From contig JAFUVE010000031.1 of the NCBI GenBank assembly GCA_017483765.1, forward strand, positions 1 through 64,000: a stretch of 64,000 nucleotides of DNA, read 5' to 3'. The translations under genes were made by a program, and so were the position numbers. The stretch is from Bacteroidaceae bacterium. GTDB lineage: Bacteria; Bacteroidota; Bacteroidia; Bacteroidales; Bacteroidaceae. This document shows, one piece after another, positions 15,035 to 18,711 of the stretch (within the stretch, counting starts at the first letter, position 1; every line of letters starts with the position of its first letter). The notes beneath the pieces are model-generated. The model was not told where the DNA came from and did not search any database. It was given only the letters and a program-made list of their open reading frames with translations.

Positions 15035-16249
15035 TTATTTACAAAGATTACACGTCTTGCATTTTTCCAGTTCTCCGAGGAATCGTTTCTCCACTTTCAC
15101 GTAGAGTTTGCTTCGGAGTGGCTCGTAGGATATTTGGTCGATCACCTGTCCCATGAATGCGTTTTTCAGCAGCATCCGTGCTTGCTCCTCGGGAATGCCT
15201 CTCTGCCGCATATAGAAGAGTGCCGTCTCGTCCATCACTCCGACTGTTGATCCGTGAGCGCATTTCACGTCGTCGGCATAGATTTCGAGCATGGGCTGTG
15301 AATACATCCTTGCCTCTGGACTGGCACACAGGTTGTTGTTGGTCTCTTGTGATGATGTCTTCTGTGCGTCTTTCTCCACGAGGATCTTTCCTGCGAATGC
15401 ACCTACAGCCTGCTCGTCCACCACATACTTGTACAGCTCGTTGGATGTGCAGTTTGGCGCAATGTGCCGGATGAGCGTGTTGTTGTCGATATGCTGTGTT
15501 GCGCTCGCAATCGCGCATCCGTTGAGTGTCACCTCGGTGTACTGTCCCTCCATGCTCACGTCACAGAGGTTGCGTGTAGTCCCGTTATGGAGCGTGATGC
15601 AGCTGTGACGCACGTTGCAGTCGTTTTCTGTATGTATGTAGACGTTGGAGAATCGGTTCATCCCTGGAGTGGTTTCCTCAATCTCGTAGAGGTCGAGACG
15701 TGAATTGTCGTGGCAGAACACTTCCACCACCTGCGTTGTGAGGAATGCCTGCTGGTCTGTGGCATGGTCGCCCACGATGACGGTTGCGTCTGCCCCGCTT
15801 TCCAGCACTACGAGCAACCGCCGGTTCATCATCGACGGTACGGCTCCGCGTATCCAGTTGTCCACATTGATGGGTTTCTCCACTTTTGTGTTTTTGGGCA
15901 CATAGATGAGCAGACATTCGTGTGCGAGCATCGTGTTCAGGAGTGTGATGCCGTCTGACGTGTCGGCCAGCCTGTTGTAATAGGCCGTCATGTCCTTCGG
16001 GGCATCCTTCAGGCTGAATATATAGCTGGATGGAGCGATTCCGAGTGGAGTGAAGAGGATGCCGTAGTTGGGTGCAAACGCCTTGTCCACGTCTGTGTAC
16101 TTATAGCGCTCCACTTTTTGTGACGGAAACCCATACTGTTTGAACAACTCAAAGGCTTTGTCCCTTTCGTTGTTCATCACGGCTGTGCTTTTCGACATAA
16201 TCATGTCGCGGCACTCACTATAGAATTCTATGTATTGTTGTTCGCTCAT
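15035..16249 (-). CDS. sufD: Fe-S assembly scaffold protein SufD
   Basis: 404 residues, a right-handed beta-helix paralogue of SufB that forms the SufBC2D scaffold. The C-terminal region has DDVKCAHGSTVGVMDETALFYMRQRG (shown in parts: DDVKCAHGSTVG, then ALFYMRQRGIPEEQA), the conserved SufD core with its functional His. The start MSEQQYIEF at 16249 is only 9 bases downstream of the MITE-like element at 16259-16457. Without that element its ATG would overlap the sufC stop as ATGA. Confidence 0.95.
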   Translation of the reverse strand: MSEQQYIEFYSECRDMIMSKSTAVMNNERDKAFELFKQYGFPSQKVERYKYTDVDKAFAPNYGILFTPLGIAPSSYIFSLKDAPKDMTAYYNRLADTSDGITLLNTMLAHECLLIYVPKNTKVEKPINVDNWIRGAVPSMMNRRLLVVLESGADATVIVGDHATDQQAFLTTQVVEVFCHDNSRLDLYEIEETTPGMNRFSNVYIHTENDCNVRHSCITLHNGTTRNLCDVSMEGQYTEVTLNGCAIASATQHIDNNTLIRHIAPNCTSNELYKYVVDEQAVGAFAGKILVEKDAQKTSSQETNNNLCASPEARMYSQPMLEIYADDVKCAHGSTVGVMDETALFYMRQRGIPEEQARMLLKNAFMGQVIDQISYEPLRSKLYVKVEKRFLGELEKCKTCNLCK

Positions 16250-16258
16250 TGTTCTTCC

Positions 16259-16457
16259 TTAAGGGTGGTTCTGAAAATTATGTCGGTTCGATTTTTGATT
16301 TTATGTGAGTGGTTTTTTGTTAGCGTTTGAGGGCGCATAGCGGGCTTTGTAACCGAAAAGGATGACAAAAAGACACCACAAAAAACAAAAAGCGGCCGAA
16401 ATAAGAACCATCAACAAGTTACACTTTCAAAATCATAATTTATAGAACCACCCTTAA
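16259..16457. mobile_element. MITE-like element with TTAA target duplication at the sufC/sufD junction
   Basis: A 191-bp body (16263-16453) is flanked on both sides by TTAA (16259-16262 and 16454-16457). The ends are 20-bp terminal inverted repeats beginning GGGTGGTTCT, matching at 18 of 20 positions (16263-16282 against 16434-16453). There is no ORF inside. The right end supplies the last codons and stop of sufC. Deleting the body plus one TTAA joins sufC as ...DWIKEEQ-stop with an ATGA overlap onto the sufD ATG, the kind of junction expected in this operon. That restoration is strong internal evidence for insertion. The TTAA target suggests mobilisation by a TTAA-specific transposase encoded elsewhere (inference). 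Confidence 0.8.
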
Positions 16458-17187
16458 TCCAGTCGAATCCGTTGTCTTCAATCTGTTTTGCCAGTTCCGG
16501 GCCACCTGTCTTGACAATCCTTCCGTCGAGCAGTACATGCACTGTGTCGGGCGTGATGTAGTCGAGCAGCCTCTGATAGTGCGTGATGATGATGGCGGAT
16601 GTTTCCGGCTTACGCAGCTTGTTGAATCCCTCTGCCACTATACGCAGTGCGTCCACGTCCAGTCCGGAATCCGTTTCGTCGAGTATGCAGAACGTAGGCT
16701 CGAGCATTGCCATCTGGAATATCTCGTTGCGCTTGCGCTCACCTCCGCTGAATCCTTCGTTCACGGAGCGGTTCACCAACTTGCTGTCCATAGACACCAG
16801 TTTACGCTTCTCACGCATCATCGACAGGAAATCAGAGGCTTTCATCGGATCGAGCCCCTGGTATTTGCGCTTAGCGTTGACGGCTGCTTTCAGGAAGTTT
16901 GCCATCGACACTCCGGGAATTTCGATAGGCTGCTGGAAGGACATGAATATGCCGGCATTTGCACGTTCTTCAGGCTTCATCGCCAGCAGGTCGTGCCCGT
17001 CGAACATGATGCTGCCTTCGGTCACCTCGTACGAGGGGTCTCCCACAATCACTTTGCTGAGTGTGGACTTACCGGCCCCGTTGGTGCCCATCAGCGCATG
17101 AATCTCTCCGTCTCGGATGGTGAGATCCACGCCTTTGAGTATTTCCTTGCCGTTTACGTTGGCATGCAGATTTTTTATTTCTAACAT
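16411..17187 (-). CDS. sufC: Fe-S assembly ATPase SufC (C-terminus altered by insertion)
   Basis: 258 residues, ABC-type ATPase that drives SufBD conformational change. Walker A is GTNGAGKST, the signature is FSGGERKRNE, and Walker B is FCILDETDSGLD; all are intact, so the protein should be active. After DWIK the last 13 residues (GGSINYDFESVTC) are encoded by the inserted MITE-like element. The inferred ancestral end is EEQ. The start is ATG at 17187. Its leader holds three ATCTAGA copies (about 17217-17256), a looser direct repeat than the heptamer leaders of neighbouring genes. Confidence 0.95.
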   Translation of the reverse strand: MLEIKNLHANVNGKEILKGVDLTIRDGEIHALMGTNGAGKSTLSKVIVGDPSYEVTEGSIMFDGHDLLAMKPEERANAGIFMSFQQPIEIPGVSMANFLKAAVNAKRKYQGLDPMKASDFLSMMREKRKLVSMDSKLVNRSVNEGFSGGERKRNEIFQMAMLEPTFCILDETDSGLDVDALRIVAEGFNKLRKPETSAIIITHYQRLLDYITPDTVHVLLDGRIVKTGGPELAKQIEDNGFDWIKGGSINYDFESVTC

Positions 17188-17216
17188 GATTTTGTTCTTT
17201 TTTTTGATGGCTTTTT

Positions 17217-17256
17217 TCTAGATGTCTAGATGCTCTGGATTTTCTAGATATTCTGC
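17217..17256 (-). repeat. Direct repeats (3 x TCTAGA) in the sufC leader
   Basis: Three copies of TCTAGA occur within about 40 bases of the 84-base sufB-sufC spacer, two of them 8 bases apart and the third 18 bases away. Spacing is irregular, so membership in the heptamer-leader class is uncertain. Confidence 0.5.
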
Positions 17257-17271
17257 CTGGTTTTATTCGCT

Positions 17272-18711
17272 TTATCCTACGGTTCCCTCAAGGGAGACAG
17301 AGAGCAGTTTCTGGGCTTCCACAGCGAATTCCATGGGGAGTTTGTTGAGCACGTCCTTGGCATAGCCGTTTACGATGAGCCCGACTGCCTCCTCGGTGCT
17401 GATGCCGCGCTGGTTGCAGTAGAGGAGCTGGTCCTCCGATATCTTCGATGTCGTGGCCTCATGCTCCACGGTGGCGTTGTTGTTCTGCACATCCATATAG
17501 GGGAAAGTGTGGGCTCCACATTCGCTTCCCAGCAGCAGGGAGTCGCACGACGAGTAGTTGCGTGATCCGTCGGCTTGCTTTCCCACTTTCACGAGGCCAC
17601 GGTATGAGTTCTCGCTCTTTCCTGCTGATATGCCTTTCGAGATGATTGTGGACTTTGTTCGTTTGCCCAGGTGTATCATCTTCGTGCCGGTGTCAGCCTG
17701 CTGGTAGTTGTTTGTGACGGCGACGGAGTAGAACTCGGCCTGCGAGTCGTCGCCTTGCAGCACGCAGCTCGGGTATTTCCATGTGATGGCAGATCCGGTC
17801 TCCACCTGTGTCCATGACAACTTGCTGTGGTGTCCTTTGAGCAGTCCTCGTTTGGTCACGAGGTTGAGCACGCCTCCTTTTCCTTCCGAGTCGCCTGGAT
17901 ACCAGTTCTGCACCGTGGAGTATTTCACCTCGGCGTTGTCCATCACCACGATTTCCACAATGGCTGCATGCAGCTGGTTCTCATCGCGCATCGGGGCAGT
18001 ACACCCTTCGAGGTATGACACATAGCTGCCAGATTCGCAGACGATAAGTGTCCGTTCAAACTGACCTGTGTTTCGTGCGTTGATTCGGAAGTAAGTAGAG
18101 AGCTCCATCGGGCAGCGTGTGTTCTCGGGAATGTAGACGAACGACCCGTCGGAGAACACAGCTGAATTCAGTGCTGCGAAATAGTTGTCGCGGTATGGTA
18201 CTACGCTTCCCAAGTGCTTCCTGACCAGATCTGGGTGATTTTTGACTGCCTCGCTGATGGAGCAGAAAATGATGTTTTTCTCAGCCAGCTTCTCCTTGAA
18301 CGTGGTTTTGACGGATACTGAGTCCATCACTGCGTCCACAGCCATTCCGCTGAGAGCCATACGCTCTTCAAGCGGTATTCCCAGCTTGTCGAAGGTCTTC
18401 ATCAGTTCCGGGTCGATTTCCTTGTTCTCGCTCTGCTGCTGTTTCCTGGTAGGGTCTGCATAGTATGAGATGTCCTGATAGTCAATCTCTGGCAGACGCA
18501 GGTGTCCCCAGCTGGGTGCTTTCTGATCCTTCCAGTAGCGGAATGCTTTCAGACGGAATTCCAAAAGCCAGTCAGGCTCACCTTTCTTCTGCGAGATGAG
18601 CCTTACGACGTCCTCGTTGAGGCCTTTGTCGATGATTTCAGTCTGTATGTCGGTGGTGAAACCGAATTTGTATTTCTCTTCTGCTACTTTTTTTACAAAT
18701 TCGTTTGGCAT
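17272..18711 (-). CDS. sufB: Fe-S assembly scaffold protein SufB
   Basis: 479 residues, the core scaffold of the SUF system. It has the SufB-specific N-terminal region ([19 protein letters not shown]) and the beta-helix core, including [18 protein letters not shown] and the C-terminal [21 protein letters not shown] (in parts: [21 protein letters not shown]) with the conserved Cys and Glu residues. It is the first suf gene, following cvpA after 115 bases that are almost entirely heptamer repeats. No TTTG/TAnnTTTG promoter is visible in that gap, so transcription probably continues from the rimP promoter. Confidence 0.96.

Follow-up and report, generated by a model that had tools for sequence, protein, structure and literature searches.

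The junction of sufC and sufD in the window (the whole stretch of 64,000 nucleotides analyzed here) carries a 191-bp insertion, which is very probably a nonautonomous MITE of the IS5 family that inserted itself at a TTAA of the sufC 3′ end and duplicated these four bases. The insertion at 16263-16453 is confirmed, and a chance origin is excluded because further copies exist in the genome (the nearest with 89% identity over its full length) and because a relative retains the empty site with a single TTAA. The element is of an ordinary kind, an IS5-type MITE, and its insertion is genuine, with a matching empty site. Its 20-nt inverted ends match at 18 of 20 positions, and the inverted arms including the TTAA span 24 nt with 92% complementarity. 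The segment is short and noncoding (the longest ORF beginning inside it has 40 amino acids and no Pfam match), bears terminal inverted repeats, lies between two copies of its target and has many dispersed copies in its own genome, all of which are features expected of a MITE. A first-pass annotation made from the sequence alone had proposed a MITE-like insertion between the two genes that encodes the last 13 residues of SufC, and both proposals were borne out: SufC here ends as GFDWIK-GGSINYDFESVTC-stop, in which the element supplies both the stop and the 13 C-terminal residues GGSINYDFESVTC (Table 1). A 14-base end pattern, with up to two mismatches allowed, was found in the window only at the element's own two ends (2 matches, compared with 0.28 expected; 4 of 100 shuffles reach 2). 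An Rfam search of positions 15900-17300 at E ≤ 1 produced three matches, none of them close to the gathering score.

Table 1. Features of the sufC/sufD junction in window coordinates
Feature	Positions	Strand	Remarks
MITE body, 191 bp, IS5-type ends	16263..16453	.	TTAA on both sides, further copies, empty site in G012
Target duplication TTAA, sufD side	16259..16262	.	Single TTAA in G012
Target duplication TTAA, sufC side	16454..16457	.	Single TTAA in G012
Inverted end, counterpart of the end continuing TCGG in other copies	16263..16282	+	
Inverted end, counterpart of the end continuing ATTTT in other copies	16434..16453	-	
sufC, final 13 codons and stop inside the element	16411..17187	-	Pfam ABC_tran
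Spacer from sufC stop to sufD start, 161 nt	16250..16410	-	Almost entirely element
sufD, start codon and AAGGAAG just upstream both retained	15035..16249	-	Pfam SUFBD_core

Empty Site and Variation of the Junction among Relatives

The junction was compared, using window positions 16000-16700, among 13 genomes of the genus, including the genome that harbors the window (G000). The element was absent between sufC and sufD in all 12 same-genus relatives, and one of these (G012) exhibited the empty site, with flanks 96% and 95% identical to those of the window and joined at one TTAA. Across this junction the coding strand reads GATTAAGGAAGAACAATGAGC, the last SufC residues are GFDWIKEEQ, and the sufC stop and the sufD start overlap in ATGA, exactly the coupled arrangement that had been predicted from the removal of the body and one TTAA. 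The earlier reservation that relatives might lack an empty-site allele and carry the long SufC tail is thereby settled in favor of an insertion. The four-base ATGA overlap, which is lost in the filled allele, was found in 7 of the 12 relatives (G003 counted by eye). The SufC C-termini, for which DWIKEE(Q) had been expected, agree with that expectation in G012, and the tails of the other relatives vary; across the 12 genomes, 3 to 20 residues follow DWIK, and SufC therefore tolerates change there. The junction of G007 has a 58-nt spacer between the two genes and that of G008 a short repeated stretch of the AAAGTGAAA-like type; in G009, the SufC tail and the SufD start both contain palindromic repeats rich in G+C. 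On these comparisons, the sufC/sufD junction looks permissive. The repeats of G009 (L039), which add a SufC tail SLTPNPSPNGEGNSRSSSLI and a new SufD N-terminus, comprise a second case of repeats remodeling this junction.

Copies and Spread of the MITE Family

A search of the own genome with the element yielded 57 rows, 32 of them at E ≤ 2.2e-5; because 17 of these 32 lie at contig ends and could be halves of shared copies, we estimate about 24-32 copies or remnants in the draft genome, many of which are 80-90% identical to the element over part or all of its length. The end pattern was found at 53 sites of this genome, compared with 3 for the reversed pattern. The family explains many contig breaks in the draft assembly. 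It was detected in 7 of the 13 genus genomes (G000, G002, G003, G006, G007, G010, and G012), so the recurrence of the body on which the first-pass annotation had made its reading depend is well supported. At E ≤ 1e-10, 11 of the 399 genomes sampled from the host family also contain it, spread over 4 of 30 genera, in a search that scored two candidates per genome and whose counts are not copy numbers. A genome of another genus (G134) has a 191-bp copy with 70% identity and TTAA on both sides. None of the 21 complete copies lies within an ORF of at least 100 amino acids, and in three of them (the window copy, L069, and L132) a neighboring ORF stops inside the element.

Plasmid and phage records searched with the family copy L007 gave no match. 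Window positions 16100-16600 matched 17 plasmid records, and among the five listed the sufC part alone matches. In viral contigs the core pattern was absent, and seven stretches with the end pattern are taken as chance.

Target Site and an IS5-Family Partner

Exact 4-bp duplications were observed at 15 of 21 end pairs, which had been prefiltered to allow no more than one mismatch between the 4-bp flanks and include two pairs (598 and 2895 bp) that are not elements and one (176 bp) that is a sister element. The 15 duplications comprise TTAA (6), TTTA (3), TAAA (2), and TATA, TTGA, TCTA, and TGAA (1 each). Among 96 flanks, in a count that takes both ends of one copy, T occupies position -4 in 84 and A position -1 in 87, and TTAA is the commonest single flank (25/96), with other sequences in the remaining 71. 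The regular expressions used for the ends fix several end positions, which in part forces the conservation seen there; the flanks and position 18 were left free. The target rule is close to T-W-W-A over 4 bp rather than TTAA, and the TTAA-specific targeting claimed in the first-pass annotation does not hold. Its expectation that other copies would have TTAA flanks holds for part of the family, the G134 copy included, and many other copies have different flanks.

Two contigs of the own genome end alike, with GGGATGTTCTATAAATTAACATATT followed by a frame starting MQKTTIYRKPMSENL, which represents 137-140 bp of the left end of an IS. With 140 bp of this end as query, 7 of the 399 family genomes matched, the own genome included, of which G143 and G245 did so over the full length and the other four over shorter stretches. 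In G245 the IS is complete, with a length of 1371 bp, TAAA flanking it at either end, and ends like those of the MITE; its contig is also present in GTDB as RUG13587, an uncultured Prevotellaceae MAG. The transposase of this IS contains DDE_Tnp_1 and DUF772 (Pfam) and belongs to NF033581, the IS5 family (NCBIfam transpos_IS5_4), with 270.9 bits at a cut-off of 140; the closest named transposases in plasmid records are those of IS1169 (58.7%) and IS1168 (57.9%). When 16 IS loci were checked for ends, like ends together with equal 4-bp flanks were found at four distinct elements, namely L175, which is the same element as L182 (TAAA), L187 (TAAA), L194, which is IS1168 (ATTA), and L195, which is IS1194 and has more divergent ends (TTAA). 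TTAA is therefore not unusual for bacterial elements, contrary to the earlier claim. L183 and L184 have like ends with unequal flanks, and the remaining loci, which are most of the 16, exhibited no clear paired ends.

The left consensus of the MITE agrees with the left consensus of the IS at 16 of 20 positions (reached in 0 of 100,000 shuffles) and the two right ends with each other at 13 of 20 (62 of 100,000). Position 18 is A in 43 of 45 left ends and C in 48 of 51 right ends of the MITE, and the same asymmetry was found among the IS ends entered by hand (A in 6/6 left, C in 5/6 right). Beyond the ends, MITE and IS have little sequence in common; they share the 4-bp duplication and the same T..A-rich target rule, the latter on few IS cases. 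No intact IS with both ends was seen in the own draft genome; a protein search at E ≤ 1e-80 listed no transposase there, and the IS is represented by the left end and frame start at the two contig ends. At the same threshold the transposase was found in 5 of the 399 family genomes and, among the seven MITE-bearing genus genomes, in G007 only, where it has 77% identity over 264 residues and a similar right end, is interrupted by another IS and is cut by the contig end. A full-length element with like ends and a transposase, as the first-pass annotation had sought, is present in G245 and was not found intact in the own draft genome; the partnership is deduced from the ends and the target, since no whole IS is seen beside the MITE in this genome. 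The MITE at sufC/sufD was most likely moved by an IS5-family transposase, because IS5-family elements have the same kind of ends and lie between 4-bp duplications and because an IS end is repeated in the own genome. This links an abundant MITE family of a Prevotella-like genus to transposases of the IS1168/IS1169 type. Two internally deleted IS5-type copies, L174 (G143) and L191 (RUG280), are possible intermediates toward nonautonomous forms.

Other transposases were also considered. PF01609 was found in 8 of 13 genomes (19 rows) and PF12762 in 4 of 13, the latter with no MITE-type end seen nearby; PF13751 was absent from 13 genomes and PF13586 from 4. The candidate L115 (G006:C127, 67-1950) is actually another IS, encoding a 548-residue DDE_Tnp_1 transposase and inserted in a MITE end. 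The exact 52-bp direct repeat that flanks this IS is longer than target duplications usually are. The end at L113, judged by eye, is of the sister-element type and not the end of the IS located there, and none of ten proteins beside lone ends has a transposase domain.

The MITE entered the TTAA located within the Lys codon directly before the last three codons of SufC, duplicating the four bases; under the IS5-family reading, an NF033581-type transposase was presumably provided in trans from the IS that has its end repeated in the own genome. EEQ was thereby replaced by the 13 element-encoded residues, a net gain of 10 at a freely varying SufC tail, and a hairpin-forming spacer was placed before sufD. 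The insertion was most likely tolerated; the overlap coupling sufD to sufC translation is lost, and sufD would presumably start translation on its own.

Paired Changes in the Hairpin

The coding strand of the suf element has a predicted fold of -55.3 kcal/mol (z -5.33), and comparable predictions were obtained for the G134 copy (z -5.77) and for the 176-bp element, whose ends are similar and whose body differs (z -7.44). Covariation was analyzed in 16 chosen copies and in 14 chosen, more diverse copies (row L080 cut at an assumed end); each structure (one weak pair removed) had been predicted on the very alignment that was scored, and the excess of paired changes is inflated for that reason. 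The 16-copy alignment has 40 cells changed on both sides of a pair, compared with 12.0 (sd 2.6) in shuffled and 0-5 in slid alignments. Its pairs with double changes are in weak excess (9 vs 6.6 shuffled, with 21 of 500 shuffles reaching 9), and its number of pair types is no higher than in shuffles (267 of 500 reach it). In the 14-copy alignment, double changes were found in 19 of 51 pairs, 16 of the 19 outside the ends, and 44 cells changed on both sides compared with 11.0 (sd 2.5) shuffled and 3-8 slid; all measures exceed all 500 shuffles. As far as these alignments reach, the whole hairpin, beyond its ends, shows putative compensatory changes across genera. G-U and A-C cells occur in similar numbers (13 and 12 in the 16-copy alignment, 18 and 13 in the 14-copy alignment), and therefore neither strand is marked as a functional RNA.

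These changes raise the question of what keeps the entire MITE hairpin palindromic, the part most worth following; it may be selection, a constraint at the DNA level or templated correction of quasi-palindromes. A tentative reading, which we consider rather unlikely, is that the one-sidedly bulged hairpin of about 191 bp, with an apex of about CATAGC-YCG-CTATG, would be more than a passive derivative. It would then be a structured nucleic-acid unit maintained by selection, which uses IS5-type ends to move and comes to rest next to genes, sufC/sufD being one instance. This reading is suggested because the compensatory changes are found across genera and at a distance from the ends required by the transposase, and because the different 176-bp element has the same ends and a similar apex.

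Alternative Explanations

Many contigs of the assembly end in repeats of the MITE family, and a repeat copy could in principle have been misjoined into the suf locus; such an artefact is nevertheless very improbable, given that the suf copy is internal to a contig of 78.9 kb, lacks a near-identical counterpart in the genome (see above), is bounded by a clean TTAA duplication and has both flanks collinear with G012. Equally hard to credit is the piggyBac-like element with strict TTAA targeting that the first-pass annotation had suggested. TTAA on both sides of the suf copy and its rank among the single flanks speak for such an element; the suf site alone resembles the piggyBac superfamily in this respect, and across the MITE family the target is loose, with most flanks differing from TTAA. 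None of 151 family genomes gave a match to the piggyBac transposase domain (PF13843) above its cut-off, and the MITE ends match those of IS5-family elements. Three weak PF13843 matches in G100 (E about 5e-4; L156-L158) correspond to an IS with unrelated ends. From the earlier interpretation we therefore keep the insertion of a MITE-like element, its further copies and, in a relative, the coupling of sufC and sufD through ATGA, and abandon the piggyBac-like targeting.

That the insertion was kept by selection as a hairpin tuning SufD relative to SufC, through mRNA processing, stability or uncoupled translation, appears unlikely. The strong fold, the position of the element between two cistrons and the compensatory changes in the family would suit such a role, but the element is present at suf in 1 of 13 genomes, and in the predicted minimum-energy fold of positions 16180-16500 it closes on itself and leaves the sufD start unpaired, as it likewise is in the empty G012 allele. 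Nor do the balanced G-U and A-C cells mark a working RNA strand, and the promoter-like motif TAnnTTTG was absent from the stretch tested. A tolerated insertion of an IS5-family MITE remains our preferred reading, and the filled and empty junctions form a clean pair in which the importance of the sufC-sufD overlap could be assessed.

Known and Related Elements

IS1168, IS1169 and their relatives (IS5 family, Bacteroides) resemble the suf MITE in their ends, of the type GGNNNNTTCTATAAATTA / GGTGNGTTCTATCAATTC, in the ATTA duplication on one copy of IS1168, and in a transposase that shares 58-59% identity with the one from the Prevotellaceae IS; unlike the MITE, which has another body and no transposase, they are autonomous and about 1.3 kb long. 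The ATR and Correia-type MITEs of Neisseria differ from the suf MITE in sequence, and RNA processing is known for Correia elements. They are likewise small bacterial MITEs adjoining genes, and ATR has IS5-type ends, according to the passages of PMC4596501 that deal with them. The same passages describe the Porphyromonas gingivalis MITEs BrickBuilt, MITE239, MITE464/PgRS and MITE700, whose ends match IS5-family elements; these belong to the same bacterial order and similarly have IS5-type ends, whereas their end sequences (e.g., GAGACCTT) and targets are others and two types contain tandem repeats (PMC4596501). A title search of the open literature, with subscription journals and ISfinder outside its scope, found no description of the present family.

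Several related forms accompany the family. The sister element at L095:2165-2340 has 176 bp, TAAA on both sides, similar ends and a similar apex GTAGCTCGCTAC around a different body, and among the matches listed it also occurs at L024 from 819 and at L097 from 5269. A second hairpin, which is REP-like (GTCACGACTCGGC..CAAGCAAGCTTG..GCTCTCGCTGCTC) and has complementary arms of variable sequence, sits at differing places within MITE copies (L014, L024, L025, L026, L107, and L138 among the matches listed) and also inside the sister element (L097, about 5388). Very short derivatives extending scarcely beyond the two ends were found, among the matches listed, at L082, L093 (3800-3840), L097:2976-3019, and L100:3035-3070.
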